A DNA stretch of 37,856 nucleotides, taken from Campylobacteraceae bacterium (GTDB taxonomy: Bacteria; Campylobacterota; Campylobacteria; Campylobacterales; Sulfurovaceae). Below the pieces are notes generated by a model. That model was not told the DNA's origin. It saw only the letters and a list, made by a program, of their open reading frames with translations, and did no database searches. Location of the stretch: contig JAMOOX010000097.1 of assembly GCA_027065045.1 (NCBI GenBank), positions 1 through 37,856 on the forward strand, given 5' to 3'. Of the stretch, positions 15,543 through 37,856 are shown in pieces. The position numbers and the translations under genes are program-made. Position 1 is the first letter of the stretch. Each line of letters begins with the position of its first letter.

Positions 15543-16139
15543 TTATACTAGGTTATTGCTTATATTGCTATTAAGTTTAACTGTTTTAACAATTTTAACT
15601 TTAGATAACTTCTCTTCATCTTGAATTGCTATTAATCCTACTCTATATACGACTGATGGCATATATTTACCACCTAATAGACTCCATAAACCACTCTGTT
15701 GTTCTAGCGGTATAGTATTTAACATAAAGTTTAATTTTTCTATATTTTTAAACTTATCTAGTTCTTTTGTATTTTCTACTGTAAATGCCATTTTTTGTTG
15801 AAAAAACTCAATAACTTTGGTAATATAATTTAGCTCATTTAGATAATCATTAGCAAAATTTGAGATAAAAATAATTTGTAAATTAAGATTAACAGCAGGG
15901 TTTTGGGTATAAACTTTTCTATTTTCTACCCGTTTTTTAACCATAGCACTTTTAGTAGAAAGCTCCTCTTCTATATTTAATAGACTCATAGATATAGCAT
16001 TATCAGGTAGATTAAATTCTCCATTTATGCTATTTGGTTTATGTAAGACTACACTTTTTTTATCTGTTGGCATCTTGATATCACTATCAATAAAAGTTGA
16101 AACCTCTTTGGCTATAAGTTGTAAAATATCTCCTATCAT
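15543..16139 (-). CDS. CIS tail-terminator-like protein, DUF4255 (Pvc16/Afp16 type)
   Basis: DUF4255 proteins occur in eCIS loci and correspond to the terminator that caps the sheath-tube assembly. This 198-residue protein shows the family plan: a helical start (MIGDILQLIAKEVSTFI), a strand AISMSLLNIEEELS, the conserved stretch NPAVNLNLQIIFISNFANDYLNELNYITKVI, and a C-terminal GLWSLLGGKYMPSVVYRVGLIAI. It is the last gene of the long - strand operon, starting 31 bases after the giant lipoprotein gene. Terminators are structural parts, so finding one after an envelope module ties that module to the CIS. Confidence 0.8.
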   Translation of the reverse strand: MIGDILQLIAKEVSTFIDSDIKMPTDKKSVVLHKPNSINGEFNLPDNAISMSLLNIEEELSTKSAMVKKRVENRKVYTQNPAVNLNLQIIFISNFANDYLNELNYITKVIEFFQQKMAFTVENTKELDKFKNIEKLNFMLNTIPLEQQSGLWSLLGGKYMPSVVYRVGLIAIQDEEKLSKVKIVKTVKLNSNISNNLV

Positions 16140-16170
16140 TTTATTATCCTTTAATAATTAGTATAATACT

Positions 16171-19100
16171 CTACCAATTTGGTGGAGTTAAACCACCACC
16201 ATTACTAGTATTAAAATCAGTATGTGTTACTGAAGTATTTACAGCCCATATACTTAAATCTTGTGAAAAATTATTTGTCCCATAAAACATTCTATTCATA
16301 TTGGTTACATTTTGAACATCCCAAGATGAAATATCTGTATCAAAACTATCTGCTTCTTCAAACATTCCCTCCATATTTGTAATAGTAGATACATTCCAAC
16401 TATCAATATTTTGATTAAAATTTGTATTAGCAAACATATAACTCATATCTGTAACATTAGATAAATTTGGTCTATCTTTAATTATACTATTCATATTTAT
16501 ACAGCCATTAAATGAGTTACTCATATCTTGCCACTCAATTGTACCCCATTGTTCAATTGATATAAGTTTTTTAACATCATTTGCGTCCATATTATTTCCC
16601 AAGAACTTTGGAAAATCTCCTTTGATTTTTATAGTATAATCACCAATTGTACCATATGTATGTACAATATCTGATGTTAAATTAATATTTGAACTATTAT
16701 CTCCCCAATCAATTGAAAAATTATAGTCAGTTCTTGTATCATCTATATTGATTTTAATTTGATAATCAGTAGAATTTCCTAGATTATCAGTTCTCCAAGT
16801 TGTAATAAATGGTTGATATGTATCTACTGATTGTATAATAGTTGAAGATGCTATATTGAAGTTACCTGAACTATCTTTTGTTACATTTTCATCTATTTTT
16901 ACAATTATGGGTTGGTTTGAATTAAATGGTGCTTGTAGAGTTAATGTATAAAAAGACCCACTACCATTAAAGTTACGACTATTGATATTATCACCTGATA
17001 TATTAATATCACTTAAATTAAAATCTACTACATCTTCTGAAAAATCAAAGTTATATGTAATCTCTTCTATTTTCCATCTAGTACCACTAAGATATGCTAC
17101 AGTATCTAAAGCTAAATCATGATTACTTGAAATAATAACAGTTGGTCTAGTAGTATCTGCACCATCGACTGCTATAATTACACTTGATGGTAATCCCTCT
17201 CCTGAGTTATTAGTAAATGTTACTTCTAAATTATATTCATCATCTGCAAATATATTTTCTGAATGAGCTATAGTAATTTCACCACCTAATGTAATATTGA
17301 AATTTTCACTACCAATACCTGATAGATTTACATCACTAATAGCACTATCTTTTTCATCTACTACAACTGTACCAACAACTGTTCCATTTATATCACTATC
17401 TTTAATCCTTTCAAAGAAGCTATCTGCTGTTGGTCTATCCTCTTCTACATTAGTAATATTAATAGTAACATTTGATGGAATGGAACTACCTGATATAGTT
17501 ATGGCTGTAGCTTGTAAAGTATAGTTTTGATTAGTTTCAAAATCTGGTGGAATAACTATGTATATACTACCATTTGTTTCTACTTTAAAGTGTTCTGCAT
17601 CAGTGCCTGAGAGATTAATGCTTGTAATATTTCTATCTCCTTGGCTATTAATAACAATATTACCTATATTTGTACCTTTAGCAGTATTTTCTATTACAGT
17701 AGTAGTAAATGTAGATAGAGTAGCTACTACATCGGGTACATCTTCTATATTAATAACTACAGATTTAGATATAGAATCTCCTGCATCATTTGTTGCTACT
17801 GCTACTAATGAGTATGATGTTATTGTCTCATAGTTTAGGGCTAAAGCTACAGTTATTGTACCATCTATAGCTACACTAAAATATTGTGCATTCCCACCTG
17901 ATAGATTAATGGCTGTAATAGGTCTATCACCATTTGTTATAATATTTATATTTCCCACAACTGAACCTATAGTTAAACTCTCTTTGATAGTCGTAGAAAA
18001 ATTATCTATAATAGGCATAATATCAGGAATATCAGTTATAGTAATAGTAACACTTTTAGAGAGACTTATTCCTGCATCATTAGTAGCTACTGCTATAAGA
18101 TTAAACTTATTTTGTGTCTCATAATCTGGTGATTTTGCTATTGTTATTTGACCATTTGTAGCTACTGTAAAATATTCAGCACCCACTCCTGTAAGAGAAA
18201 TTTTACTAATTTCACTATCTCCTTTTACTATAATTGGAATATTTCCAGAAATTATTGTACCTACAGGAATATTTTCATCTATTGTTGGAGAAAAATTATC
18301 TATAATTGGGATAACATCTGCTACTGGTAGAACAGTAATACTTATATCTACAATATTAGAAGCACCTGCTGTATTTGTGGCAACTGCTTTTAGAGTATAT
18401 GTCTTTATAAATTCATCTTTTTCATAATCTGGTGGATTTACTACTGTTATAATACCTTTTGTATCTACAATAAAATCCTCTTTACCATCACCTGTAAGAG
18501 TAATACTATTAATAGGACTATCTCCAACATCTCTAATATTAATAATTCCAACAATTGTATTTGCTTGGCTATTTTCTACAATATTTGCATTTACTGATTC
18601 AATTAATGGCACTTTATTTGCTATATCTTCTAGCGTAATAGTAATATCAGTAGGAGTGCTTGTGCCTCCAGCATTTGTAGCAATAGCTTTTAGGCTATAT
18701 ACCCTTTGTACTTGTGTATCTAATGGTGGTGTGATTGAAAATACTGAAATTCTACCTTTGTTATCTACACTAAAGTGTTCTGCACCAATTCCTGATAGGT
18801 TAATGGTTGATATTGGGCTATCTCCCTCGCTTGTGATATTAATTGTACCAACTACACTATTAAGTGCTATATTTTCACGGATATTTGCACTAAAACTATT
18901 GATAGTTGGTGCTACATCAGGAATATCTGTAATAGCTATTGTAATACCTTGTGATGTACTATCTCCTGCACTATTAGTAGCTACAGCTGTTAGTACATAT
19001 TGATATTTCTTTTCATAATCTGGAGGATTTACAATATAAATATTACCTTGTGTATCAACTCTAAAATCTTCTGCGCCATCTCCTGAGAGGCTAATGGTTG

Positions 19101-20211
19101 ATATTGGGCTATCTCCAATAGTTGATATATTAATCTTATCAATAATATTATCTTTAGGGGTATTTTCTATCACTTTGACTGAAACATTATTTATAATGGG
19201 TGTTACATCTGCACTATCTACTACGCTTATAGTAATATTTTGTGGTATGCTATCTCCTGCACTATTTGTAGCTATTGCTGTAAGATTATATATATTTTTA
19301 CTCTCATAATCTATATTTGGATTTTTTCCTAAAGTTACTAATCCATATTTGCTATCTATAGTAAAGTTCTCACTACCATCTCCACTGAGAGTCATATTTG
19401 TAATTGGTGTATCACCACTATAAACTATAGTTACTGTACCTATAATAGATGAACCCTCTTGTGAATTTTCTAAGACACTTCCATTAAAGCCCCGAATTAC
19501 TGGTACTAATTCACCTTTATCACTTAAATTAATAGTTACAGTAGCTGGTTTACTATCTCCTGATATATTAGTAGCCGTTACTAGAAGATTATAACTTTTA
19601 AGCTTTTCATAATCTAATATAGCACTACTAGATACTTTAATTGTACCCTCTTTATCAACTGTAAATGAACTACTATTATCACCACTTAAGGTCATAGATG
19701 TAATAGGAGAATCTCCTTGGCTTATTATTGCTACTTTACCTACTAGAGTATCACTTGGTGAGTTCTCTTCTATTGTGGCTGTGAAGTTTTCTAATGATGC
19801 CACCTCTTCAGGTATATTTACTACTTCAATAGTTACAACAGTTGCTTTGCTATTACCCTCAATATCTGTAATAGTAAGTGCAAGATTATAAGTATTTCTA
19901 GTCTCATAATCTATTTTGGCATCTCTATTTAATATTAATAATCCACTCTTATCAATTAAAAAATTTTCGCTACCATCACCACTTAATATAATATCTTTCA
20001 TTTCAAATATAACTAAATTTGATAAATCTACTCTACCAATAGTTGTACCAAATGAAGCATTCTCATCTATTTTACCCGAAAAAGAGTTTAATATTTCAGG
20101 TTCTACAGGAGTAATTAGGGCTGTATCTGATGAACTCCCTCCAGTTTCACCACAACTATTTAATAGTAAAAAAATAGTTGTAATAAATAATATAATTAAT
20201 TTCTTTTTCAT
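16171..20211 (-). CDS. Giant cadherin-like / BspA-repeat surface lipoprotein
   Basis: A 1346-residue predicted surface or periplasmic adhesin. The N-terminus is a lipoprotein signal ending LLNSC (Cys20). About ten cadherin-like repeats of roughly 95 residues follow (to about residue 960), each with an E-N-x-x-x-G/T-x-x-V/I-G opening (for example IDENASFGTTIG, IEENSPSDTLVG), a central DSPITxMTLSGD-like strand and an xxDYExxxxYNLxAxATN close. Next come an Ig-like domain starting TTRPTVIISS, a PKD-like segment with IDWGDNSS and HTYGTIGDYTIKI, and BspA/DUF285 repeats (SNVTDMSYMFANT, ISSWDVQNVTNMNRMF). It sits between a beta-barrel gene and the terminator gene of the CIS operon. It probably mediates contact with other cells; calcium binding is possible but unproven. 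Confidence 0.8.
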   Translation of the reverse strand: MKKKLIILFITTIFLLLNSCGETGGSSSDTALITPVEPEILNSFSGKIDENASFGTTIGRVDLSNLVIFEMKDIILSGDGSENFLIDKSGLLILNRDAKIDYETRNTYNLALTITDIEGNSKATVVTIEVVNIPEEVASLENFTATIEENSPSDTLVGKVAIISQGDSPITSMTLSGDNSSSFTVDKEGTIKVSSSAILDYEKLKSYNLLVTATNISGDSKPATVTINLSDKGELVPVIRGFNGSVLENSQEGSSIIGTVTIVYSGDTPITNMTLSGDGSENFTIDSKYGLVTLGKNPNIDYESKNIYNLTAIATNSAGDSIPQNITISVVDSADVTPIINNVSVKVIENTPKDNIIDKINISTIGDSPISTISLSGDGAEDFRVDTQGNIYIVNPPDYEKKYQYVLTAVATNSAGDSTSQGITIAITDIPDVAPTINSFSANIRENIALNSVVGTINITSEGDSPISTINLSGIGAEHFSVDNKGRISVFSITPPLDTQVQRVYSLKAIATNAGGTSTPTDITITLEDIANKVPLIESVNANIVENSQANTIVGIINIRDVGDSPINSITLTGDGKEDFIVDTKGIITVVNPPDYEKDEFIKTYTLKAVATNTAGASNIVDISITVLPVADVIPIIDNFSPTIDENIPVGTIISGNIPIIVKGDSEISKISLTGVGAEYFTVATNGQITIAKSPDYETQNKFNLIAVATNDAGISLSKSVTITITDIPDIMPIIDNFSTTIKESLTIGSVVGNINIITNGDRPITAINLSGGNAQYFSVAIDGTITVALALNYETITSYSLVAVATNDAGDSISKSVVINIEDVPDVVATLSTFTTTVIENTAKGTNIGNIVINSQGDRNITSINLSGTDAEHFKVETNGSIYIVIPPDFETNQNYTLQATAITISGSSIPSNVTINITNVEEDRPTADSFFERIKDSDINGTVVGTVVVDEKDSAISDVNLSGIGSENFNITLGGEITIAHSENIFADDEYNLEVTFTNNSGEGLPSSVIIAVDGADTTRPTVIISSNHDLALDTVAYLSGTRWKIEEITYNFDFSEDVVDFNLSDINISGDNINSRNFNGSGSFYTLTLQAPFNSNQPIIVKIDENVTKDSSGNFNIASSTIIQSVDTYQPFITTWRTDNLGNSTDYQIKINIDDTRTDYNFSIDWGDNSSNINLTSDIVHTYGTIGDYTIKIKGDFPKFLGNNMDANDVKKLISIEQWGTIEWQDMSNSFNGCINMNSIIKDRPNLSNVTDMSYMFANTNFNQNIDSWNVSTITNMEGMFEEADSFDTDISSWDVQNVTNMNRMFYGTNNFSQDLSIWAVNTSVTHTDFNTSNGGGLTPPNW

Positions 20212-20220
20212 AGTATCCTC

Positions 20221-20850
20221 CTAGAACCAATATGTAAAGCCAACGGTCAAAATATCTGATGTCATATCAGAATTTGTCGCTAATCCATCAAAACCTGTAT
20301 CGTCATATAGTATAACATAATCTGCAAATAGGTTGATTTTATCATATAATCTATATGACATTCCTCCACCAAATTGAACACTCTTTACACTTCTAGCTAT
20401 ATCACCCTCGGGGACATTTGTAATCTCTACTTGTCCATATCCTATTAAACCATAAACAGATATATCACCCAATGGATAAATTCCTTTTATATATGCACCA
20501 ATATTTGTAAAGTTTGTTGGATAATCTTCATTATCTTTATTTATTGTATTTCCACTATCATAATCAACTGCACCTACATCTGCTGAATATCTAATTTCTA
20601 GTGCCATATAATCACCATATTGATAACCTACAACTATATTTTTGCCAAATGTTGTAAATTCCTCTTGTGTACCACTATTACTTAGAATTTGATATGATAC
20701 ACCCCCACCTACATAAAAATGCCCTTTTTGTAAATCTACAGATATTGTATCCATTTTGGCTCTTGCATCTGCTATAATACTGCTCTCTCCATAGAGTAGG
20801 CTACTACATAAAACTAATGCTGTTGTTAATACTTTAACCTCTTTTTTCAT
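20221..20850 (-). CDS. Outer-membrane beta-barrel protein (OmpA-like eight-strand type)
   Basis: A 209-residue exported protein with signal peptide MKKEVKVLTTALVLCSSLLYG, a short linker, then alternating amphipathic strands: GHFYVGGGVSYQI, IVVGYQYGDYMALEIRYSADVG, NIGAYIKGIYPLGDISVYGLIGYGQVEI, VQFGGGMSYRLYDKINLFADYVILYD, and the end ILTVGFTYWF. The final aromatic residue is the usual barrel-assembly signal. It has no peptidoglycan-binding OmpA C-domain. It lies ten bases before the giant lipoprotein gene and 23 bases after the four-domain sensor gene. It may be the outer-membrane partner of the envelope module. Confidence 0.8.
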   Translation of the reverse strand: MKKEVKVLTTALVLCSSLLYGESSIIADARAKMDTISVDLQKGHFYVGGGVSYQILSNSGTQEEFTTFGKNIVVGYQYGDYMALEIRYSADVGAVDYDSGNTINKDNEDYPTNFTNIGAYIKGIYPLGDISVYGLIGYGQVEITNVPEGDIARSVKSVQFGGGMSYRLYDKINLFADYVILYDDTGFDGLATNSDMTSDILTVGFTYWF

Positions 20851-20873: not shown

Positions 20874-23432
20874 TTATTTTTCGTTACTAAAAAAGTTGCT
20901 AAGATGATTTGATTGAATCTCTTGCATTCTTCCATTTTTATATAATTTAGATATACCACTATTTAATTTACCTATAATCTCATCTACTCTAGGATTACTA
21001 CTATGGACGATTAGATTCATCTCTAGTAGGGTTGATATTGTCTCTATTGATGATATTATATCTCCTATTCTCATTTCAGATATAATAGCAGAACCTGAAA
21101 ATTTATCTACTGCTACAAAATCTACTCTATTTTCAACAAGTAGAGTAAAACAATCTTTTTTGTTACTTGGTCTAATAAGTTTAATGGTTTTGCCATCAAT
21201 TAAACCTTGATTTGTCAAATCAAATGTATATATACCCTTTGGACGACATATTTTACTATTATATACATCTTTTGGAGATAGAGGATTTATCTTATTATCA
21301 TTTCTCTTATATAAGGTACTAATTGTCTCAAAAATTGGTTTAGAGAATTTGAATTTACATCTTCTTTGTGCATCTTTGCTTAGGTTTGTCTTATTACAAT
21401 CTGGCTTGTACCATGCTATACCTACATCTGCCTTGCCACTCTCTAGCATATCAAAATGAGTAGAGAAATCTTTGTTCCAAAATATCTTATAGTCATTATC
21501 TCCATTTATTTCAAAAATCTCTTGGACTATATGATTTGCCATACCTCCATAGGGTAGGGTAGGGCTAAGGAATGGTTTAAAATCTGTTCCTGATAGTAGT
21601 TTAATTCCATTGGCACTTACATTTTTATTAAACTCTTTATCCTCTTTTTTAAACTTAAATTGTCTAATTTGTGGTATTGTTAGTTGAGATTTAATATATA
21701 TATTAGATGGATTTTTACCAATAGTATCTCTATTAGCATAGTATATAATATCCCATCTCTTAGAGTTTTTATAGAATTTATAAGCTATTGATGCTAAGGT
21801 ATCACCTTTTTTTACTATATACTTCTTGTTATTCTCTACAATAGAGGCTTTATCATATACTACTCTAAATCCATTATTAAAACGAATTATTGTATCAATA
21901 TTTCTCATACGATTTTTGCTTCTTGTATTGGTAGCTAGATTTAAGAAACTACCACCTCTTAATACTCTAAAGTCTTTATCTTTTTTATTGTCTTTGTAAT
22001 TATTACTATAGTAGCTACTACACCACTCCCATAAATTACCTCTCATATCATATAAACCCCATTTATTTGGTTTTTTAAGGGCTACTTGATGGGTATGATT
22101 ATTAGAGTTTTTAGCAAACCATGCTACATCTTCAATATTGCTACTATCACTATTAGAGGCATACTCCCACTCTATTTCACTAGGTAATCTATAATTATTT
22201 CTACCCTCTAAAAAGTTTAATTTTTCTATAAATTGAATAGCATCTCTATAGCTTATATTATCTACTGGGTATAGAGAGCTATTTTGGTGTAATCTATCAC
22301 TTTTAAAGTATGATGGATTACCACTCATAAGTCTATTCCATTGTGCTTGTGTTACTTCAGTAGTCTGTATATAAAATGAATTTACTCTTTTATCTGTTTT
22401 GGGTTGTTCGTTTTTGGGTAGAGTTTTATCACTACTTCCCATCTCAAATGAACCACTAGGAAGCTTTTTAAATCTCATACCAATTGTATTTATAAACTCT
22501 CCTAGTCTATCCATATTTCTAAAAATTGACTCTTTGGCTACACTATGTAGCGACCACTTAACTCTCTTGTAGTAGTATGGATAAATAATCTTCCAATAGC
22601 TATCACCATCCTCTCTTATATTATCCATATTTCTTGATATGGCATCAATTAAATTAGATATATTTTGTACATAATAGTTAAATCTTTTTATGATTTTACT
22701 TTTTTGATAATTATATGATATTAGCATAGTAGTTAAGCTATTTGTCTCTACCTCTTTGTTTAGCCATGAGTAGTGAGATGGATTAATATATGATACTTTA
22801 TAATCACTGCCTAATGTTGGAGATATAAGAGTAAGCTTTTTGCCATCTTTATCACTGATTTTAGATAGTGTTGATGATGGTTTAGACTCTATTAAAATTA
22901 CGGCATCTATATTTTTATCAATTAATTTTTTGATAGCATTTTTAGATTTATAATGACTCTCTATCCAATCTATGCGATGTTTATGTTTAAGTAATCTTCC
23001 TATGGTAGAGAAACTATTTTTGCCAATATCAATATTTACTTTTTTATTTTTTAGGTCTTGAATAGTTTTAATATTAGAATTAGCCCTTACTATAATATAA
23101 ATATCCTCATCATATAGAGGTAAAATCATTTTGATATTTTTTTCAAATCCATCTACTCTCTCTATATCTCTTTTATAAAGTAGTACATCATAAGGAACTA
23201 TTGCAAATTGAGCTTTTGGGTCTGTGAGGACTTTATCTATTATTTGTAAATGAGTACCATAATAGATATTTATATTCATACTTCGTTCTGTAATTTTTTT
23301 AATATCTTTTGCTATATTATAATCAATATCATTTTCTACTAATAGATGAATTGTAGTATCTTTATTAAAAACTTCACCATATAATATATGAGTAAAAAGA
23401 ATTAAAAGTATAAGTTGTTTTATTAGTTTCAT
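20874..23432 (-). CDS. Four-domain periplasmic protein: TAXI + FGE-like + LysM + SBP_bac_3
   Basis: The start is set at ATG 23432, preceded by AAGGAAA and opening a signal peptide (MKLIKQLILLILFTHILYG). A longer frame back to 23504 overlaps the PAAR gene and adds non-signal sequence. In the 852-residue form the order is: TAXI/PhnD-type binding domain (about 26-240; IYIIVRANSNIKTIQDLKNK); linker; FGE/sulfatase-modifying-factor-like domain (317-527; YRLPSEIEWEYAS, GNLWEW, LRGGSF, FNNGFRVV); LysM (537-588; YIVKKGDTLASIAYKFY); and a family-3 binding domain (608-838; GTDFKPF, MLESGKADVGIAW, LVENRVDFVAVD). The FGE-like domain lacks the active-site cysteine pair. It would sit in the periplasm, held to peptidoglycan by LysM, with two ligand pockets. 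A sensor or assembly regulator is my inference. Confidence 0.85.
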   Translation of the reverse strand: MKLIKQLILLILFTHILYGEVFNKDTTIHLLVENDIDYNIAKDIKKITERSMNINIYYGTHLQIIDKVLTDPKAQFAIVPYDVLLYKRDIERVDGFEKNIKMILPLYDEDIYIIVRANSNIKTIQDLKNKKVNIDIGKNSFSTIGRLLKHKHRIDWIESHYKSKNAIKKLIDKNIDAVILIESKPSSTLSKISDKDGKKLTLISPTLGSDYKVSYINPSHYSWLNKEVETNSLTTMLISYNYQKSKIIKRFNYYVQNISNLIDAISRNMDNIREDGDSYWKIIYPYYYKRVKWSLHSVAKESIFRNMDRLGEFINTIGMRFKKLPSGSFEMGSSDKTLPKNEQPKTDKRVNSFYIQTTEVTQAQWNRLMSGNPSYFKSDRLHQNSSLYPVDNISYRDAIQFIEKLNFLEGRNNYRLPSEIEWEYASNSDSSNIEDVAWFAKNSNNHTHQVALKKPNKWGLYDMRGNLWEWCSSYYSNNYKDNKKDKDFRVLRGGSFLNLATNTRSKNRMRNIDTIIRFNNGFRVVYDKASIVENNKKYIVKKGDTLASIAYKFYKNSKRWDIIYYANRDTIGKNPSNIYIKSQLTIPQIRQFKFKKEDKEFNKNVSANGIKLLSGTDFKPFLSPTLPYGGMANHIVQEIFEINGDNDYKIFWNKDFSTHFDMLESGKADVGIAWYKPDCNKTNLSKDAQRRCKFKFSKPIFETISTLYKRNDNKINPLSPKDVYNSKICRPKGIYTFDLTNQGLIDGKTIKLIRPSNKKDCFTLLVENRVDFVAVDKFSGSAIISEMRIGDIISSIETISTLLEMNLIVHSSNPRVDEIIGKLNSGISKLYKNGRMQEIQSNHLSNFFSNEK

Positions 23433-23443: not shown

Positions 23444-23812
23444 TTATACCATTACTTTGACTTGACCTGCAAATGAGATAGATATTACACCTGCCCACAT
23501 ACACATAAGTTTAGAACTATCATTAACTGATGGCATATTTTTGACTAATACCATAGGATTAGCAGGTGTCCATGGTGCAACTGTATTTGGAATACAAGGG
23601 ACAGGAGAACCTAATGCTGCAATTACAGCAGGATTAGCAGGCGATGTACACATTCCAAATGGTGGGATATTAACCATAGGTTTATTATCCATAATATTTG
23701 CCATTGGCTTTTCTGTACACATTATCATCTTGTCTGGTAAGATATTTAAGTTACTTGGAGCAACTCCAAATGAACACATCATCATCCCTCCAGTACATAA
23801 AGAAAATCCCAT
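23444..23812 (-). CDS. PAAR-like spike-tip protein, DUF4280
   Basis: DUF4280 proteins are PAAR-like tips that cap the spike in eCIS and some type VI systems. The 122-residue protein matches almost throughout: CTGGMMMCSFGVAPSNLNIL (6-25), PMANIMDNKPMVNIPPFGMC (37-56), a mid cysteine in SPVPCIPNTVAPW, and KLMCMWAGVISI at the end. Cysteines at 6, 13, 32, 55, 73 and 104 could bind metal. An AGGAGG lies a few bases before the ATG, the strongest ribosome site in the region, fitting a structural part. It is far from the spike gene, amid the envelope module. Confidence 0.9.
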   Translation of the reverse strand: MGFSLCTGGMMMCSFGVAPSNLNILPDKMIMCTEKPMANIMDNKPMVNIPPFGMCTSPANPAVIAALGSPVPCIPNTVAPWTPANPMVLVKNMPSVNDSSKLMCMWAGVISISFAGQVKVMV

Positions 23813-28702: not shown

Positions 28703-28706
28703 CTAT

Positions 28707-29921: not shown

Positions 29922-31184
29922 CTATATCGGAATATTTTGTAAATTTAAAATTTTACCATTCTTACCAAGGGCTACATAATCTTGAACTCTTATAAATTTC
30001 TTCATACCCTTTTCTACTCTCATAGCATTTACATAGATACCACTAGTATTTTCTAAATCTTCTATAAAATAACCACTCTCATATATATATATTTTGGCAT
30101 GTTTAGGTGCAATATCTTCTCCACGGACTATCATATCACAACTCTCATCACTACCTACAATAATATAATCTTTTTTAACAACCTCTTTTTTCTGCTCTTT
30201 GAGTATATTTTCCCAATCACCATCAAATATAGTAGCATTATTAAAGTGCAATATCACCTTAGAGAAAAATGAACTCTCTATATTTAAAAAAGGATTATAA
30301 TACTCTACTTTTAGTGTCTCACTAAATTCAAATATAGCCTTTAATCTTATAAGATTTTTCCAAAGAGCTGTATGAATTATATCATCTCGTTCTATATCTA
30401 TTTTTAGTGACATTTCTAAAAGTTTTTTGAGACTACTATATAGTTCCCAAGGTCTATTATTAGTGCTTTTTTTAATACTACTAGAAATAGATAAAGAGTA
30501 AGATGCAATAGTTGCCATACTATAAATATTTTTTCTAAAACCAAATTCATGTAAAAAATTCCCATACTTATCAAGAGCATTAGATATATGTTCAATATCT
30601 TCTAAGTTTAAAAGTATATTTTCACCCAAAATTTTGGGTACATAATTTAAATTAATCTCATTATCTTTGGGTTCAAATGGATTTATTGGGGATTGTATAT
30701 TTTGAGTACCTTGATGAGATATATAAATTCTACCTAATTCTATTAACTCATTATCTCTTAATTTCTTTTGAGATAGTGTAATTTTGGATGTTTCATTAAT
30801 ATTATAATATATCTGTACATCTTTATCATATTTTGATGGTTTTAGATTATCCATTTGGGTATCATAGGCTATATATACAAATATATGAAATCTATTATCA
30901 AATTGTTCTACTAAAATATCTTTTAATAATATATAATTTTTATCCAAAAAGATTATATTACCATTAATATCAATAGCACTACCTGATTTGACAATTAGAT
31001 TATTATTATCTACTATTAGTTCCAAAGAGCCTTTAAATCCTACCAATACACCTTTTCCAATACCATAAACATTAGCAATAGATATTTTACTACTTAAACA
31101 ACTCTCATTTAATCCAATCTGTTGTGGATTAAATTTAATTCCATCAATAAAATTTGTTTTATATAACTTCTCTGTAGGTAACAT
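29922..31184 (-). CDS. FHA-domain protein with tail-fibre-like N-terminal segment
   Basis: A 420-residue cytoplasmic protein. Residues 338-415 form a forkhead-associated domain: IIVGSDESCDMIV, APKHAKIYI (His362), and DLENTSGIYVN, which bind phosphothreonine in known FHA proteins. The usual SxxH serine is replaced by Ala-Pro. The N-terminal part has VLVGFKGSLELIV and IKVxSGSAID-like sequence (GSAIDINGNIIFLDKNY), a pattern seen in CIS and phage appendage proteins. The middle is helical. FHA proteins are regulators or scaffolds in type VI systems. No Ser/Thr kinase is visible in the window. The ATG overlaps the stop of the small upstream gene by one base. Confidence 0.8.
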   Translation of the reverse strand: MLPTEKLYKTNFIDGIKFNPQQIGLNESCLSSKISIANVYGIGKGVLVGFKGSLELIVDNNNLIVKSGSAIDINGNIIFLDKNYILLKDILVEQFDNRFHIFVYIAYDTQMDNLKPSKYDKDVQIYYNINETSKITLSQKKLRDNELIELGRIYISHQGTQNIQSPINPFEPKDNEINLNYVPKILGENILLNLEDIEHISNALDKYGNFLHEFGFRKNIYSMATIASYSLSISSSIKKSTNNRPWELYSSLKKLLEMSLKIDIERDDIIHTALWKNLIRLKAIFEFSETLKVEYYNPFLNIESSFFSKVILHFNNATIFDGDWENILKEQKKEVVKKDYIIVGSDESCDMIVRGEDIAPKHAKIYIYESGYFIEDLENTSGIYVNAMRVEKGMKKFIRVQDYVALGKNGKILNLQNIPI

Positions 31185-31402
31185 TAATTATCCTCCTCTA
31201 AAAACATTTTACGAACTTTGAGATATAATCTATCATATACTTTATCTTCATTTATAATATATCTATCTTTTATGTTATCATATAATAAATCAACTTTATT
31301 ATCTACTATATTATTCACTTGTGAGATTATTTTAAGTTTATTTAAGTCAGCTCTATTGATAAGGTGTCTATTTTTAAAGAGGGAATTTTTAGTCGTAATC
31401 AT
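31184..31402 (-). CDS. Small helical protein of the CIS operon, about 72 residues
   Basis: I do not recognise a family. The frame allows starts at 31417, 31408 and 31402. I prefer 31402 (MITTKNSLFKNR), because GAAAGAG lies six bases upstream, and because this gives a 14-base rather than 29-base overlap with the preceding tail gene. The protein is highly charged and mostly helical (LNKLKIISQVNNIVDNKVDLLYDNIKD). Its position between the gp7-like and FHA genes suggests a small baseplate or chaperone part. Confidence 0.6.
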   Translation of the reverse strand: MITTKNSLFKNRHLINRADLNKLKIISQVNNIVDNKVDLLYDNIKDRYIINEDKVYDRLYLKVRKMFLEEDN

Positions 31403-32177
31403 AGTCATCTCTTTCATAAGTGATTATATCTTCTTTTATATCGTTTTCTATATGAAGTTTATAATTATAGATTATATTCATTTGTGAATTTACAGGTTTC
31501 TCTTTTTCAAAAATAGACTCAATAATATTATAAAGCTTACTCTCTTCATCTTCATCTTGAGATAATCTATTTTCAATAACTACACTAAATCCTCTTATTT
31601 TAGGGTTGGTAATATGTTGGTTTAGTGGGCTATAAGGATTATCATCAATAGTAATATCAACATTAATTAATGATTTGATAAGTTTGATAAAGTAACCTTT
31701 TGTTCCTCTACTTTTATATAACTCTACTACATTTGATACTATTCTTCTTCTAGCTTTTTCATCTGTTATATTACTATACTTAATACCAAACCAAGAGGAT
31801 AACCAATCTATATAATTAGTTCTATATGGTTTAAAAACTTCATCAATATTGAATATTTTTTCATTAATATCTAATAGTGATGACTGCACACCAAAGAGGT
31901 ATCTTTTCAAAAAATCTTTTTTATGATACAAAAGAGGTAGATAGTTCATTAAAGAGTATGAATTTAGAGTCAAATCTATACTCTCATCTATATTAAAACT
32001 ATCAACAGATACCAAAGATAGCTCATCTTTACCTCTTATTTCTACTATTTTAATAGTATTTACCTCTATATTATTTTTATCAAGTAGTACTTTGAGTCTA
32101 TAATATCCAATAGGCAAATCCTCTTTTAATATTTTTTGAAGATGAGTAACAACATCTCTTTTGGTATCAAATATCAT
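31389..32177 (-). CDS. Baseplate wedge protein, gp7/phage tail protein I type
   Basis: This 262-residue protein matches the phage tail protein I group (TIGR02242-like) found in eCIS next to the baseplate J gene. Marks of the family are SLMNYLPLLYHKKDFLKRYL (about 73-92), a FGVQSSLLDINEKI helix, NYIDWLSSWFGIKYS, and RRRIVSNVVELYKSRGTKGY, the RGT turn being the most conserved feature. It would join the gp6-like J protein to form the baseplate wedge around the hub. The 11-base overlap with the J gene shows tight coupling. The first 70 residues and the acidic tail are specific to this copy. Confidence 0.88.
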   Translation of the reverse strand: MIFDTKRDVVTHLQKILKEDLPIGYYRLKVLLDKNNIEVNTIKIVEIRGKDELSLVSVDSFNIDESIDLTLNSYSLMNYLPLLYHKKDFLKRYLFGVQSSLLDINEKIFNIDEVFKPYRTNYIDWLSSWFGIKYSNITDEKARRRIVSNVVELYKSRGTKGYFIKLIKSLINVDITIDDNPYSPLNQHITNPKIRGFSVVIENRLSQDEDEESKLYNIIESIFEKEKPVNSQMNIIYNYKLHIENDIKEDIITYERDDYDYD

Positions 32178-35058
32178 AAGATAAATCCTCTATAATCACA
32201 TTATCAATATGTACAAGTTGATTATGTGCTAGATTTACCTTGATAATATGCTTTAATGAACCATTAAGAGAAAATTCAATCTCATCAATAAATATATTAT
32301 TATCAACTTTTTGTATAATAGCATAAAAATCACTCTTATTAATTAGCTTACCAAGAGGAAAACCATCACCTTTATATCCTGTGATAGGGTCAAAATATTT
32401 AGAGGCATTAGATATTATAGAGTTTGATAAATCAAGCCTAGATACACTATAACCCTCTACTGTATATAGTAGTTTTAGATATACGCTAATTGTTACAACA
32501 GTTGGTGGTATTAATATTGGATTTACTGTAAGTAGGCTTCTTTTTTGTAGATAGTTTTTTAAATCATCTAATAGCTTTTTATTGATAAATCCCATATCTT
32601 TGATAATTGTTTTGGTGATAGGCATAATAATAACATCACCATCTTTTGCTATACATTTAGCTCTTTTAATAATAGGAGAGAAGTTTTGACAAAGCAGTTC
32701 ATAATCCTCTACACTAATAGCTCTATCCATAGTTTTAAGAACCGATGGGGCATAACTTTTGAGATTATCTAAGCTATCTCCATCTACTCCATTTTCTGTT
32801 TTTTGATGGTTTGTTACACTATCAATATAATTAATAGATTCTCTAATTACACTAAGTTCATCTCTATTTACATTGCCATCTTTACCCATAGTAATACTAT
32901 AACTAGCAATTCTTACAGTCTCTCCAAGTTCAGGAATAGCCCCATACTCCCCATCTCCAAACTCAATCAATCCATCTATTCCATTAAATCTAAATACTTT
33001 ATCATCTTTGCCATAATCTATAAATCTATCAACTGCCTTAAACTCATCATCTCCTACAAATACCTTGGGTGGTGCAACCAAATTTTTGGAATTTAATGCA
33101 AATCTCAAATCAGGTAACCCATCAGAACGCCCTAATAACTCATCATAAAAAGTCTCTTGTTGGATTACATCTACACTATTTAATAAAACTGCATTAATTG
33201 GAGGTGAGTTTTGAAGAGAGTTAAATATTACTCTAGCTTTTATCCACATTCTATTATACTCTTCTATATATAGAGTATTTTTTTCAAGAGCATCTATCAT
33301 AGGTAGTTCAATAGTTACATTTCCTGATGCTGTAAGCCCATCAGTAGTATCATCTACATTATCTAAAGCTTCCCATTTGCCATCTTTTAGTAATTCCCAT
33401 TTTATCACTCTTTGTTGTGTAAATATATTTCTCTCTTTTGTATCATTATCTATATCAAAAAATATAGATATGCTATCTTCACTTAAATATGAATCAAATG
33501 CCAAAAACAGAGCCTCTTCTCTTTCTCCTACAACATCAAAAAGCTTTGTAGGTAAATCATCAATAAACTCTATATCTTTGTATTTAAAATCATTTAATAC
33601 AGTACAATCTTGGATATCATCTCTTGGCTTTGAATAGCTTATATATACAGAACTAAATACAGGTGGTCTTAGAGTAGATGGAGTGATTACCATCTTATTA
33701 TTGATATATTCACTCTTCTCTTCTGCCCCATAATTACCATCTGCTATCCTACATCTTACCCAATACCCCTCTTCTCCATTAAACTCTATCATTATCATAT
33801 CTTCTGGAATTTCAAACGATACGCTTCCATCTCTTGTCATAAGCTTTGTATCATCTAATACTTTGAGAAAACTCCATTGATTAATATCTGTAGGATACTC
33901 CCAAACTAATCTTAGATTATCATTATCTTTTGGCAAAATATACTCAGGATTTAAAGAGTGTTTAATAGATATAGTTATCATAGTATGTGCTACTTCAAAA
34001 GCCTCTTTACTATCTATATAAAATATCTCTTCTACCATCTTATCATCTATTTTTGGTCTATTCCCAAATGGATAAAAATCATTATTAAGGTTAAGTGCCT
34101 CTCCATTATGAGAACAGTAAGTTGGCAATACTCCACCTTTGACACTACTTGTAACCACACTTACCTCATAAATAGCAAACTCTTTAAGCCATGATGGAAC
34201 TTCTTCAAAAGTACCTCTCATATAATAGTTCTCATCTTGACTAAATCGTTCTAATACCCACTCTTGAAACTCACTATTTTCACCCTTAAATGTAACAGAT
34301 AAAATATCAGCATCTTTATCATCTAAAACTAATGAATAGTTATTTAAAATATTAAGAGATTGCCAAGATACACCATTATAAAACTCCCACTTAATATTTT
34401 CTAAAAAGTTCTCTTTGATATGATGTATTCTCATAGTAGTAGGTAGCCTAAATACAATAGATATATCAGCATTATAATTAAATACATGAAAAGATTTTGA
34501 AGCTAGATAAATTTGTGTAATATTATCACTAGCCCCATCAGCATTAAATGGTGTAAAGCTACCCGTATCTTTTAGCATAGCCATATTATCTACAATATCA
34601 TCTCTTTCTCTATATGTATTAAATGTTTTGGAGTAGATATTTAATAGTTTTGCATTTGATATACTCAAATCTTTTACTGTTTCAAATAGTACTACCTCTT
34701 CATCACCCTGTGGGTCGGTAGTAATGATAGAACCCTCTGGAATAAGTATTGTACTTTTCTTATCGCTAGTTGATTCATACCCCTCACTCAAAGAGAATGT
34801 AACTTGCCCATAAGATGGACGAGGTAATCTCTGTTTAATACCTATTAAATCCAAAAATGCCAAATAGTTTTTTTGTGGTACTTGATTAAGTCGTTCTATC
34901 ACATCTTCATTCATAGAACTTAACAACTCAACAATAGTAATCCCTGGGTCACTAGTATTATGATTTGTCCACTCAGGACAATGTTTTACAATATTAGATA
35001 CTGCATCATCTCTAATCTCTTGATAAGTTCGCCCATCTAATTTAATATCTTTTAACAT
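32167..35058 (-). CDS. Baseplate J-like wedge protein (gp6/Afp11 type)
   Basis: A 963-residue putative baseplate assembly protein of the eCIS type. The start MLKDIKLDGRTYQEIRDDAV and the following CPEWTNHNTSDPGITIVELL are typical of the large J-like proteins of Afp/PVC loci. The central part is a set of beta-rich insertions. The core J domain is in the last 350 residues, with FRFNGIDGLIEFGDGEYGAI, GKDGNVNRDEL and RAISVEDYELLCQNFSPIIKRAKCI. With the gp7-like protein it forms the wedges that hold the sheath and open on contact. It starts ten bases after the gp25 gene. Confidence 0.92.
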   Translation of the reverse strand: MLKDIKLDGRTYQEIRDDAVSNIVKHCPEWTNHNTSDPGITIVELLSSMNEDVIERLNQVPQKNYLAFLDLIGIKQRLPRPSYGQVTFSLSEGYESTSDKKSTILIPEGSIITTDPQGDEEVVLFETVKDLSISNAKLLNIYSKTFNTYRERDDIVDNMAMLKDTGSFTPFNADGASDNITQIYLASKSFHVFNYNADISIVFRLPTTMRIHHIKENFLENIKWEFYNGVSWQSLNILNNYSLVLDDKDADILSVTFKGENSEFQEWVLERFSQDENYYMRGTFEEVPSWLKEFAIYEVSVVTSSVKGGVLPTYCSHNGEALNLNNDFYPFGNRPKIDDKMVEEIFYIDSKEAFEVAHTMITISIKHSLNPEYILPKDNDNLRLVWEYPTDINQWSFLKVLDDTKLMTRDGSVSFEIPEDMIMIEFNGEEGYWVRCRIADGNYGAEEKSEYINNKMVITPSTLRPPVFSSVYISYSKPRDDIQDCTVLNDFKYKDIEFIDDLPTKLFDVVGEREEALFLAFDSYLSEDSISIFFDIDNDTKERNIFTQQRVIKWELLKDGKWEALDNVDDTTDGLTASGNVTIELPMIDALEKNTLYIEEYNRMWIKARVIFNSLQNSPPINAVLLNSVDVIQQETFYDELLGRSDGLPDLRFALNSKNLVAPPKVFVGDDEFKAVDRFIDYGKDDKVFRFNGIDGLIEFGDGEYGAIPELGETVRIASYSITMGKDGNVNRDELSVIRESINYIDSVTNHQKTENGVDGDSLDNLKSYAPSVLKTMDRAISVEDYELLCQNFSPIIKRAKCIAKDGDVIIMPITKTIIKDMGFINKKLLDDLKNYLQKRSLLTVNPILIPPTVVTISVYLKLLYTVEGYSVSRLDLSNSIISNASKYFDPITGYKGDGFPLGKLINKSDFYAIIQKVDNNIFIDEIEFSLNGSLKHIIKVNLAHNQLVHIDNVIIEDLSYDI

Positions 35059-35068
35059 ACATTTACCT

Positions 35069-35461
35069 TTATTTAGACTCTAATAGATAAAATGGATATA
35101 CCAAGTTATCTACAACATTTATCTCTTTAATATAATATGATACATCAATAACTATCTCATTCTTTGCCACTGATTCTACCTCCACACTTTTGACCTCTAC
35201 GCGTGGTTCCCAGCGATTAATCGCATCATTAACATACATCCTAGCCCTTGCTTGAGTAGCACTATTATTAATCTCAAACATAAGTTCATGTATCTCACAA
35301 CCAAAATTATAATTCATAACCCTCTCACCAATTTTTGTAGATAAAATTATAAATATAGACTCTTTAATCAAATCCTGCAAAGAAGATAACATAATAGCAC
35401 CATCACTACCTATATCAAAAGATAAAGATACACCCTTACCCAAAAAAGAATTATCAACCAT
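35069..35461 (-). CDS. gp25-like baseplate protein
   Basis: A 130-residue protein of the gp25/Afp9/TssE group, which links the baseplate wedge to the sheath. It shows the usual plan: a GVSLSFDIGSDGAIMLSS start, the helix DLIKESIFIILSTKIGERVM, the conserved NYNFGCEIHELMFEINN, and AINRWEPRVEVKSVEVES near the end. The EPR motif is the family hallmark for sheath initiation. A strong ribosome site (AGGAGG) precedes the ATG, and a consensus promoter lies upstream, making this the first gene of a new transcription unit. Confidence 0.93.
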   Translation of the reverse strand: MVDNSFLGKGVSLSFDIGSDGAIMLSSLQDLIKESIFIILSTKIGERVMNYNFGCEIHELMFEINNSATQARARMYVNDAINRWEPRVEVKSVEVESVAKNEIVIDVSYYIKEINVVDNLVYPFYLLESK

Positions 35462-35515
35462 TATAACTACCTCCTAGCTATCTATTCTCATATCCTAAAT
35501 CAAAAGAAAAAATTA

Positions 35516-35544
35516 GTTATATTATATCATATAAGTTGTGTCAA
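35516..35544 (-). promoter_or_regulatory. Strong sigma-70 promoter for the baseplate operon
   Basis: Read on the - strand, TTGACA (35539-35544), a 17-bp spacer and TATAAC (35516-35521) make a near-consensus promoter about 55 bp before the gp25 ATG. A strong AGGAGG ribosome site sits between them. All genes from gp25 to the DUF4255 terminator follow with gaps under 32 bp or overlaps, so one transcript of about 20 kb could start here. Confidence 0.7.
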
Positions 35545-35613
35545 AGTATGTCATTTGAAATTATTCTTTTCTATTTGTTGAGTAATTATAATGTGTATTA
35601 TACTTAATTGTTT

Positions 35614-35644
35614 CTAGTCCTCACACAGGAGCGATGGGAACTAG
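35614..35644 (-). repeat. REP-like GC-richer hairpin element
   Basis: On the - strand the element starts CTAGTTCCCATCGC and ends GTGTGAGGACTAG, forming an imperfect hairpin around TCCT with CTAG outer arms, one bulged T and one mismatch. It is much richer in GC than its surroundings. From memory it resembles the widespread REP/RAYT-type hairpin family with cores like GTTCCCACGC...GCGTGGGAAC. It lies 34 bp after the hub gene stop and could also end or protect that transcript. Only one copy is in the window. Confidence 0.5.
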
Positions 35645-35677
35645 TAAAAGTAAAAATTTGACCCTAAAATCCAATAT

Positions 35678-36802
35678 TTATTTATGTGTACCATTGCTAA
35701 TAACTTCAAAAAATGTCCTATAAGAAGAACCGCTATAAATATGTTCACAAGATGTAATATAATACTCTCCATCTAATTTTTTACCAAGATTACCAACTTT
35801 TAGTAACTTCCCAGATAAGATTTTAGGTTCACCCTCACAACTCCCTGTTGCTTTTAAGTAGTTCATAGATGATGCTGTAAGCTTTGCTTTTGCTATCTCT
35901 TTTGCCTCTCCACTTAATATATTTGGAATATCTAGCTTATAATTTTTACTCTTATTCTTTAGCTTACTCTTCACCTCTTTTGTAGCCATCTTTTTAGCAC
36001 TACCTACTTTTGGCTCATCTCCTGCTTTTACTTTCTCTTCTACACCCTCTTTTTTGACATAATCCCAACTACTTACCATCACCTCTTCAGGAATATTATT
36101 AGAATCCATTCGTACTTTAAAATCAATCAAAGTATCATACCAATCAAGATTTACACTTTTTTTCTTATCTTTAAAACGAGCCTTTTTAAATACCATTTTA
36201 CGATCATCTACGGCTAATTCATATCCTATCAAATCAGCCCTTCTTCGTAAAAAGTCCAAATTAGATTCATTATTTTGGAATATATAATCATGCTTTTTAG
36301 AAGTAGTATCAATAGAAGATTGTAATCCTGCCTCTCCTGCCATCTTTTTGGCAATATCGCTATCTTTCATCTTGACAAAAGGACGAGAGTGTGCCATCTC
36401 TCCTAATTTATGTAGTTTATCGTAACATATCAAATGAACTTTTGGAGATTGTCCACGAGAAAAGTCATAATCAACTCTTACAATCTCTCCTTGAAATATC
36501 TCTTCATACTTTTTAGAACCAATACTTATAGTTATATCTTTACCTATATCAAAGTTTGCATCATCTTGTAGCTTAGTAAGTGGGTCATAAAAAACCACCA
36601 TCGCTACATCCAAAGCATCAACAGATAAATTTACTTTTATCTTCTCCAAATTTGCATAAACTTCTCTATCTACTTTTTTATTATTAATCTTTATCTCTGC
36701 ATCTACTAATAACATACTCTCTCCTACTACTTTAAATCCACCAACTAAGCCACTGCCACCTCCACTAGAACCACCTCTATCAACTCCACCACAACTACCC
36801 AT
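35678..36802 (-). CDS. Spike hub protein, gpD/gp27-like
   Basis: A 374-residue protein of the phage late control D type, the hub on which the spike sits. It has ADIKI-like opening strands (VDAEIKINNKKVDREVYANL), FQGEIVRVDYDFSRGQSPKVHLICYD, the helix-strand DSDIAKKMAGEAGLQ, and NESNLDFLRRRADLIGYEL, which is diagnostic. The end YYITSCEHIYSG fits the family. The start at 36802 gives a Gly-rich leader of 29 residues (MGSCGGVDRGGSSGGGSG). A second start at 36715 (MLLVDAEIKI) has a better ribosome site, AGGAG. The first keeps tight spacing with the spike gene (3-bp gap). In VgrG and Afp8 the hub and spike are one chain; here they are split. Confidence 0.88.
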   Translation of the reverse strand: MGSCGGVDRGGSSGGGSGLVGGFKVVGESMLLVDAEIKINNKKVDREVYANLEKIKVNLSVDALDVAMVVFYDPLTKLQDDANFDIGKDITISIGSKKYEEIFQGEIVRVDYDFSRGQSPKVHLICYDKLHKLGEMAHSRPFVKMKDSDIAKKMAGEAGLQSSIDTTSKKHDYIFQNNESNLDFLRRRADLIGYELAVDDRKMVFKKARFKDKKKSVNLDWYDTLIDFKVRMDSNNIPEEVMVSSWDYVKKEGVEEKVKAGDEPKVGSAKKMATKEVKSKLKNKSKNYKLDIPNILSGEAKEIAKAKLTASSMNYLKATGSCEGEPKILSGKLLKVGNLGKKLDGEYYITSCEHIYSGSSYRTFFEVISNGTHK

Positions 36803-36805
36803 AAT

Positions 36806-37633
36806 TTATCCTATCTTAGTAATACTTCCCTTTAAAGAAGCAATAGCACTACTCTCTAGCTTTAATGGTCCGGTAGCCTTTACATTTGCCACAGCAGAAG
36901 CTTTAATATCTAGTGTAGCTTTAGACTCTATTTTCATTGGTGCTTTTGATATCATATCAAGCTTTGCACCAGCATCAAATTTCATACCTGTTTTTGATTT
37001 AAGTTCAATTTTATTAGCCTCAATCTTTAAATTTTTTTCTACCTTAATAGTCATATTCTTTTTTACTTTTACATCAAGTTCATCTTCTGTTTCAATACTA
37101 AATTTACCTTTAGCTTTAAGCGTAATTGTACCTTTATCCTCTTCATTAATGATTTCAATAAATTTATCTTTTACATCAAAAGTGATAGAGCGTTTTTCAC
37201 TTTTATCCATAATAATAATCTTCTCTTCACCATCTTTATCATCAAATGTAATTTTATGCCCACTTCGTGAAGTAAAAGAACGCCTATCATTCTTATCATC
37301 ATCATTTTTATCAGTTGGAGTATCTTTACCATTCCACAAAGCCCCCAACATATAAGGAGAATTAACATCACCATTCTCAAAAGCAATTAATACTTCATCA
37401 TCAATTTCAGGGATAAAATAAGAACCTCTCTCTTTACCGGCCATAAAATTAGCAATCCGTACCCAATTAGACTCTTTATCCTTAGCCTCACCCATCCAAG
37501 GAAATTTAACCTTAATACGAGCCATTCCATCAGGGTCTTTATTATTAGTAACCATAGCCGTAACAACACCATAAATTCTATTGTCTTGTTCTTTATATCT
37601 ACTCTGTTGATATTTTTTTAATTGAGGTATCAA
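36806..37633 (-). CDS. Spike protein, gp5/baseplate V-like with beta-helix tip
   Basis: A 275-residue protein equal to the C-terminal half of VgrG. The start is TTG at 37633, supported by AAAGGA six bases upstream; the next in-frame ATG is well inside the fold. The OB-fold (about 18-105) carries IYGVVTAMVTNNKDPDGMAR, VKFPW, NWVRIANFMAG, and GSYFIPEIDDEVLIAFENGD, the core gp5 motif. After a charged linker, residues 130-275 form repeating short strands (MTIKVEKNLKIEANKIELKS) of a triple-stranded beta-helix needle. No lysozyme domain is present. Confidence 0.92.
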   Translation of the reverse strand: MIPQLKKYQQSRYKEQDNRIYGVVTAMVTNNKDPDGMARIKVKFPWMGEAKDKESNWVRIANFMAGKERGSYFIPEIDDEVLIAFENGDVNSPYMLGALWNGKDTPTDKNDDDKNDRRSFTSRSGHKITFDDKDGEEKIIIMDKSEKRSITFDVKDKFIEIINEEDKGTITLKAKGKFSIETEDELDVKVKKNMTIKVEKNLKIEANKIELKSKTGMKFDAGAKLDMISKAPMKIESKATLDIKASAVANVKATGPLKLESSAIASLKGSITKIG

Positions 37634-37645
37634 ACTATATCCTTT

Positions 37646-37856
37646 TTACTCATTATCTGTTATATTATTTATAGTTGAATCAACTCTATCACTAGCATTA
37701 TTTATAGTTGAATCAACTCTATCACTAGCATTATTTATAGTTGAATCAACTCTATCACTAGCATTATTTATAGTTGAATCAACTCTATCACTAGCATTAT
37801 TTATAGTTGAATCAACTCTATCACTAGCATTATTTATAGTTGAATCAACTCTATCA
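37646..37856 (-). CDS. C-terminal end of an unknown protein made of 11-residue repeats
   Basis: The frame is open from the right edge to TAA 37646-37648; the 5' part lies outside the window. The visible 70 codons are almost all perfect copies of ASDRVDSTINN, then ITDNE. An 11-residue repeat with Val/Ile spacing suits a right-handed (hendecad) coiled coil. The stop is 12 bases before the TTG of the spike gene, so it should be in the same transcript. In Afp-type loci a LysM tail protein usually precedes the spike gene; whether this is one cannot be judged from the end alone. Confidence 0.75.
   Translation of the reverse strand, partial: DRVDSTINNASDRVDSTINNASDRVDSTINNASDRVDSTINNASDRVDSTINNASDRVDSTINNITDNE
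37664..37856. repeat. 33-bp perfect tandem repeat, five full copies and a partial sixth
   Basis: Units begin at 37664, 37697, 37730, 37763, 37796 and 37829 (the last cut by the window edge at 28 bp). All are identical base for base. Each unit is 11 codons, so copy-number change keeps the frame. Each holds the near-palindrome AGTTGAATCAACT. The array runs beyond the window. Confidence 0.95.

Follow-up and report, generated by a model that had tools for sequence, protein, structure and literature searches.

Conserved envelope genes in a contractile injection system locus of Campylobacterota suggest an uncommon form of docking and control

How the tail of a contractile injection system (CIS) is docked in a cell, and what triggers it to fire, is an open question in the field, and the locus described here raises it in a particular form: what do genes for envelope proteins do among the genes of a CIS? 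The locus lies in a window of 37,856 nucleotides, which is the entire contig JAMOOX010000097.1 (C97) of a 2.06 Mb Campylobacterota metagenome-assembled genome. A cell-anchored CIS had been proposed from this DNA alone (the original prediction), and we found that the locus is best read as a cell-anchored machine, because it encodes an FHA protein weakly resembling TssK of the type VI secretion system (T6SS) together with a bitopic membrane protein; the contacts through which the tail would dock are putative. More specifically, the CIS would be docked via an FHA-bearing, TssK-like adaptor and its assembly or firing would be gated from the periplasm, a reading to which we assign a probability of about 0.55.

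The tail genes named in the original prediction (spike, hub, gp25, J, gp7-like protein, DUF4280 and DUF4255) were all recovered with Pfam and NCBIfam (Table 1). An extracellular-CIS (eCIS)-type tail is present, with the sheath and tube on contig C20 and the baseplate, hub, spike, tip and terminator in the window; DUF4280 corresponds to PAAR_H (PMC8651086). No Cis13-like (Afp13/Pvc13-like) tail fibre was annotated, and no transmembrane (TM) segment was evident from the hydropathy of baseplate I and J. The closest solved structures to the sheath were those of the Streptomyces CIS (8BKY and 8BL4) and a haloarchaeal system (9EZM), systems that work from within the cell. They ranked ahead of the other listed CIS sheaths, including those of the thylakoid-anchored CIS (tCIS), the Photorhabdus virulence cassette and the antifeeding prophage; this apparent kinship favours a cell-retained mode.

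The CIS and envelope genes are tightly packed on one strand, and the minus strand is coding almost throughout from 37633 down to 15543. The intergenic gaps of the envelope run measured -4 to 31 bp, in agreement with the overlaps and gaps under 32 bp reported before. Two longer gaps were present: one of 216 bp between hub and gp25, and one of 204 bp between I and the FHA gene. The latter is not empty, as it contains a conserved gene of 74-77 amino acids that had been overlooked; the C-terminus of its product is conserved in all relatives checked, where its YDRLYLKVRKMFLEE-type ending is retained. Fewer terminators were found within the run than in shuffles, and the only one on the coding strand lay inside a gene.

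C97 stops at 37856 inside a 33-bp tandem repeat, and the sheath and tube genes could therefore not be in the window. The region to the right, where sheath, tube and AAA+ ATPase genes had been anticipated, is represented by nothing in the assembly. The sheath and tube were instead found at the left end of C20, which carries a response regulator, sheath, gp19 tube, Mu gp41-like chaperone, shorter second sheath, second tube and the first part of a truncated open reading frame (ORF), with matches to Phage_sheath_1, Phage_sheath_1C and gp19 tube. No AAA+ ATPase (Pvc15-like) was present among the annotated genes of the complete operon of the related genome G163, the genomes themselves not having been searched for one. 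The right end of C97 and the left end of C20 had no common k-mer, i.e. no assembly overlap, and the gene order of the two contigs agreed with the contiguous order in G163. The repeat at the contig end comprises 5.8 copies with 100% matches just before the spike, and the G163 protein at the equivalent place is without it. The response regulator that opens the C20 sheath operon has a Trans_reg_C domain (L004 5247-5921) and was unmatched in the G163 contig stretch examined.

The same gene order was found in related genomes, complete in G163 and partial in L015, and the nearest named loci were those of Sulfurovum sp. CSMAG_1818, Epsilonproteobacteria bacterium SZUA-451 and Campylobacteraceae bacterium BB28. 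The module is kept with a CIS in three distinct lineages. The association recurs in G163, L015 and G004, and most of the module proteins are 35-60% identical. In G163, the contiguous tail part runs through sheath, tube, gp41-like protein, second sheath, second tube, a 1145-residue putative tape measure, CIS_tube protein, spike, hub, gp25, J and I, and is followed by genes for the FHA, single-TM, TAXI, FGE, 2-TM, small secreted, DUF4280 and TAXI-FGE-LysM-SBP proteins. Three eCIS_core (PF13699) proteins lie past the sheath end and Pvc16 lies past those, beyond the opposite end of the operon, so that the placement of the terminator after the envelope genes is not a fixed feature. L015 carries spike-hub-gp25-J-I-FHA-TM-TAXI up to the contig end at 55-68% identity. 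The module had been described as woven into the CIS operon; this was borne out by G163, by L015 and by the DUF4280 tip gene, which the window and G163 alike have within the module, and it failed for G004, in which sheath, baseplate and module lie on three separate contigs. The G004 module contig carries the small gene, FHA, TM, TAXI, FGE and 2-TM genes plus DUF4280 and an eCIS_core cargo protein. We found four eCIS_core proteins in G163, three in G004 and none in the five other genomes checked, including that of the window. Of the nine envelope genes originally listed, seven, together with the overlooked small gene, form the conserved module, and the beta-barrel and adhesin genes are missing from the complete operon of G163.

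Several individual features were observed in these relatives. Downstream of the TAXI-FGE-LysM-SBP gene of G163 (L010 6314-7267) is a gene for a 317-residue protein whose N-terminal part is large and periplasmic and which has about four TM helices, a topology that recalls a pentameric ligand-gated channel. The FHA reading frame of L015 (5749-7010) is broken near codon 368, by an assembly error or in reality. In G004, a DUF4280 gene (C150; L012 9348-14297) lies between genes for ATP-binding cassette (ABC)/MacB-like permeases and those for HlyD and outer-membrane efflux proteins, an odd site for a spike tip; a SIR2-STAND protein follows the module (L012 15239-18643), and two genes between hub and gp25 (L065 3302-6057) resemble, by eye, a McrBC-type or other defence pair.

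The locus is a rare accessory locus, because the FHA protein was found in just 4 of the 399 genomes of the order and in one of the five genomes of the genus. A sheath with at least 63% identity was present only in module-bearing genomes, and the others among the 399 reached at most 46% over the main segment. In G380, a separate CIS has another PAAR-like gene beside its spike, and no module was found there. G384 and G192 were unusable as CIS controls, as the sheath-like gene of G384 stands among ordinary genes and neither genome gave a gp25 match.

The protein that carries most of the argument for docking is the FHA protein. TssK has a shoulder formed by a beta-sandwich, a neck of four helices and a head through which it binds the membrane complex (PMC6300606). 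Family libraries detected just the C-terminal FHA/YscD-like domain of the FHA protein, and the TssK family model PF05936 gave nothing in G000 or G163. When its N-terminus was compared with 30 Campylobacterota TssK proteins using hhalign, the alignment had a P of 0.008-0.009 with the N-termini in register (residues 8-93 on 5-92); this score was equalled by one of 120 column permutations, and lower scores were obtained with the profile reversed and for nine further families of the locus. The secondary structure in the AlphaFold2 (AF2) model consists of a beta region, four helices (residues 194-289) and then the FHA domain, a predicted layout suggestive of the shoulder and neck of TssK with the FHA domain in place of the membrane-binding head. 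The N-terminus also matched All3314 (E 0.49), which is Cis19 of the Anabaena tCIS crown, and this weak match, as does the likeness to TssK, may point to a class of baseplate-attached proteins. In T6SSiii, TssN binds TssK and the gene order is tssG-tssN-tssK (PMC10781749), which is paralleled here by I, the small gene, the TssK-like gene and the membrane protein gene. The identification of the FHA protein as a TssK-like baseplate-to-membrane adaptor is supported, if weakly. A scan of IMG/VR for the FHA protein returned none.

The neighbouring gene encodes the candidate anchor. Hydropathy placed a single TM segment at approximately residues 187-210 of this bitopic protein, whose cytosolic half consists of two tandem repeats (hhalign E 1.5e-8 between the halves) and whose periplasmic half was modelled by AF2 as an immunoglobulin (Ig)-like sandwich, with PapD-type chaperones among the best fold matches; the orientation is probably N-in/C-out, judging from the absence of a signal peptide and the context. 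Searches of PDB sequences with the bitopic, 2-TM and small secreted proteins gave no matches, and none was obtained to TssJLM or TssNQOPR, the envelope genes carrying no TssJLM family of Pfam or NCBIfam. The 2-TM protein had been called Cache/MCP-like; this likeness is one of topology only, as no Cache or MCP signalling domain was detected and a relative in G004 showed a HAMP match (E 0.004) below the cut-off. Likewise, LysM is not a gene of its own, since TAXI, FGE, LysM and SBP_bac_3 sit in one protein. Enzyme activity of the FGE lipoprotein is unlikely, as its RGGS motif is not directly followed by cysteines, the position at which FGE has those of its active site. The FGE region of the TAXI-FGE-LysM-SBP protein best matched the Treponema variable protein TvpA (2y3c, E 4e-20). 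A diversity-generating retroelement feeding the FGE domains, which this match brought to mind, was rejected for now, as the window is without a template-like repeat and no reverse transcriptase is present among the annotated genes.

The analysis establishes the gene content and order, their conservation, the topology of the proteins and the homology of the tail. Anchoring of the CIS in the membrane appears to be supported by the anatomy of the locus; the docking contacts, the ligand sensing and the direction of firing are inferred. The baseplate (J, I, gp25, hub and spike) would bind the FHA protein, which would act like TssK, with its N-terminal shoulder and helical neck on the wedge. Its FHA domain, replacing the TssK head, would bind the cytosolic repeats of the bitopic protein and dock the tail beneath the inner membrane, following the examples of TssK-TssL/TssM and TssK-TssN. 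On the periplasmic side, a complex that marks an envelope site, attaches to peptidoglycan and detects a ligand or contact may be formed or recruited by the Ig-like domain together with the TAXI, FGE, 2-TM and LysM-bearing proteins; the solute-binding-protein (SBP)-like and FGE-like folds make ligand sensing plausible. Such sensing would allow the baseplate to assemble, or the tail to fire through the envelope behind the DUF4280 tip, by analogy with the control of TssK assembly by TagQR and with CisA of Streptomyces. The proposed chain would lead from the baseplate to the FHA adaptor, the bitopic protein, the periplasmic binding proteins and finally the outer-membrane-directed lipoprotein and the LysM protein. 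A wider claim, that this is an independently evolved, trans-envelope, ligand-gated CIS with an eCIS-type tail, a diderm host, a membrane complex unrelated to TssJLM, TssNQOPR and CisA, an FHA-bearing TssK-like adaptor and a periplasmic solute-binding and FGE/LysM gate, is put forward tentatively, and we rate it at less than even odds.

A number of results weigh against docking through this adaptor. The probability that hhalign itself assigns to the relation between the FHA protein and TssK is 5%, the AF2 model is poor (predicted local distance difference test, pLDDT, 52), and the fold search returned essentially FHA-domain proteins and not TssK. Three of the four homologues lack part of the residues with which FHA domains canonically bind phosphothreonine, and no kinase was found in the locus. 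The baseplate contig of G004 runs past I into unrelated genes, with the module on its separate contig. Finally, G319, a genome that is 92% complete, carries divergent FHA, TM and TAXI+CHAP genes on a 5-kb contig, and no sheath, spike or gp25 was found in it, so that the module may work without a CIS. The TAXI protein of G319 (C257; L014 272-1738) ends in a CHAP-like domain (E 3.5e-4) and is possibly a peptidoglycan hydrolase. Further divergent modules were sought in the family of G319, and none was found apart from that of G319 itself.

Table 1. Positions of the tail and envelope features in the window
Feature	Position	Strand	Evidence
33-bp tandem repeat coding NNASDRVDSTI, tail of an ORF truncated by the contig end	37664..37856	-	Tandem Repeats Finder (TRF); translation
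Spike, VgrG/gp5-like, Phage_base_V	36806..37633	-	Pfam PF04717 E 9e-27; 56% to G163
Baseplate hub, GPD/gp27-like	35678..36802	-	Pfam PF05954, PF24032; PHROG 52
gp25-like baseplate wedge (Cis9)	35069..35461	-	Pfam PF04965 E 5e-22
Baseplate J (Cis11, gp6/TssF-like)	32167..35058	-	Pfam PF04865; PHROG 219; 60% to G163
Baseplate I (Cis12, gp7/TssG-like; Tail_P2_I)	31389..32177	-	TIGR02242 E 2e-15; Streptomyces CIS baseplate 9gtp_E E 8e-4
Conserved small gene, 74 residues (77 if start 31417)	31187..31408	-	C-terminal YDxLYLKVRxMFLEE in G163, L015; slightly changed in G004
FHA protein: N-terminal beta region, four helices, C-terminal FHA/YscD-like domain	29922..31184	-	Pfam FHA, Yop-YscD_cpl; hhalign to TssK; AF2; weak Cis19 match
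Bitopic inner-membrane protein (proposed anchor)	28707..29900	-	Hydropathy; AF2 pLDDT 66; repeat hhalign; Ig/PapD-like fold matches
Secreted TAXI/NMT1-type solute-binding-like protein	27395..28702	-	Pfam NMT1_3 E 1e-11; TRAP_TAXI below cut-off
FGE-fold lipoprotein, PorK/GldK-like	26292..27395	-	Pfam PF03781 E 2e-49; lipobox ISSC; PorK matches
2-TM protein: periplasmic region of ~160 residues, helical cytosolic region, no output domain	24442..26295	-	Hydropathy; no Pfam family
Small secreted protein, C-terminal TM	23822..24442	-	Hydropathy; 36% to G163
DUF4280 PAAR-like spike tip	23444..23812	-	Pfam PF14107 E 1e-33
Secreted TAXI-FGE-LysM-SBP_bac_3 protein	20874..23432	-	Pfam; likely ATG start at 23432 with signal peptide
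OmpA-type beta-barrel (OMP_b-brl), not conserved with module	20221..20850	-	Pfam PF13505; missing from G163 locus
Cadherin-repeat/DUF285 surface lipoprotein, lipobox-like start NSC, not conserved with module	16171..20211	-	Pfam; missing from G163 locus
Tail terminator Pvc16_N (DUF4255)	15543..16139	-	Pfam PF14065 E 1e-29

The strongest rival to membrane docking is that the envelope genes are a control module only, in which a sensor in the envelope permits the CIS to assemble or fire, much as TagQRST-PpkA-Fha does for the H1-T6SS of P. aeruginosa, and the tail is anchored otherwise or not at all. In P. aeruginosa, assembly of TssK requires the envelope sensors TagQ and TagR (PMC6657622; PMC10482370). 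The present locus groups an FGE lipoprotein with an FHA domain and a 2-TM protein. A link between the folds of TagR and FGE is possible. However, annotation of the window and the G163 operon showed no Ser/Thr kinase or phosphatase, and the FHA domain forms one protein with a part that resembles a tail adaptor, encoded beside a conserved bitopic protein, an arrangement that also suits docking. We consider control without docking unlikely, albeit a serious contender.

According to a second explanation, a free eCIS operon has received an unrelated envelope signalling or adhesion operon by insertion, and the promoter alone is common to both. Pvc16, DUF4280 and the eCIS_core cargo are eCIS-type parts, tail and module are separable in G004, and G319 has module genes with no CIS found; against this stand the repeated association in G163, L015 and G004, kept over long divergence at those identities, the tip gene within the module and the TssK-like features of the FHA protein. 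Such an insertion seems improbable to us.

Less probable again is a cytoplasmic CIS that serves, under stress, for self-killing or ghost-cell release, as is known from Streptomyces and Anabaena; the membrane module would then be a trigger that recruits the CIS to the cell's own membrane. The kinship of the sheath to those of Streptomyces and haloarchaea is in keeping with this explanation, the tCIS fires only in lysed or ghost cells, and CisA of Streptomyces coelicolor, which is required for firing, is a bitopic protein with an SBP-like periplasmic domain and a mostly unstructured cytosolic part (PMC12237407). In contrast, the LysM protein and the lipoprotein reach toward peptidoglycan and the outer membrane, which suits outward firing, and the haloarchaeal relatives fire at neighbours.

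A prophage or decaying remnant, to which the sporadic distribution of the locus might point, is excluded for practical purposes because the flanks are housekeeping genes and the frames are intact throughout; no capsid, portal or terminase gene, which the original prediction had named as signs of a prophage, was found in the window, and gene order is conserved in relatives. Elsewhere in the window, at 8916-9929, a caspase-domain protein (Peptidase_C14, E 8.5e-26) is encoded within an apparent nos (nitrous oxide reductase accessory) cluster of NosD, ferredoxin-like, cytochrome and ABC genes.

We then compared the proposed docked machine with known systems. The Streptomyces CIS provides the closest solved relatives of both sheath and wedge, has a bitopic protein with a periplasmic domain and is cell-retained, as is proposed for the present machine; the present locus differs in its cytosolic tandem repeats, its Ig-like periplasmic part, its SBP-like proteins as separate genes, its diderm host and its FHA adaptor. 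The T6SS of Halogeometricum borinquense is an eCIS-type tail that works as a membrane-attached machine in T6SS mode, with a conserved membrane protein in its cluster. It is similar in this combination of tail and membrane protein and in its sheath, which is among the three closest; its anchor has six TM helices, and the description consulted reports no FHA, TAXI or FGE genes. The Anabaena tCIS also pairs an eCIS-type tail with membrane anchoring, and its Cis19 crown N-terminus is weakly similar to the FHA protein, whereas it is anchored via Cis12 and Cis13 extensions without a separate periplasmic module.

Among secretion systems, the canonical and Bacteroidota T6SS (TssK with TssJLM or TssNQOPR) share the logic of adaptor plus membrane protein and the tssG-tssN-tssK-like order. 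In contrast to them, the tail here is of eCIS type (phage-like single-chain sheath, Pvc16, DUF4280 and eCIS_core cargo), nothing matches TssJLM or TssNQOPR, and the head of TssK would be replaced by FHA. TagQRST-PpkA-Fha is comparable in that envelope sensors control an FHA protein and the TssK adaptor in the H1-T6SS, and different in that here no kinase was found, FHA is fused to the adaptor, and TAXI and SBP domains are present. PorK/GldK of the type IX secretion system (T9SS) resembles the FGE-fold lipoprotein in fold and sequence matches, although the latter falls far under the GldK family cut-off and no other T9SS genes were seen here.

No Campylobacterota CIS with such parts was described in the literature searched, and the locus suggests that marine vent bacteria, its hosts, carry docking and control parts that differ from those of every injection machine described to date. 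Anchoring of a CIS in a membrane seems to have evolved repeatedly, as in T6SS, T6SSiv, tCIS, haloarchaeal T6SS and the Streptomyces system with CisA, and the present locus, with its module trimmed to the conserved genes, is a variant of known CIS machinery rather than a new type of machine. If docking through the FHA protein is true, the locus adds to these systems a module for docking and sensing that is compact and separable and that combines a TssK-like adaptor with FHA in one protein, and the putative ligand-binding proteins in the same operon would make the path from signal to firing genetically traceable.

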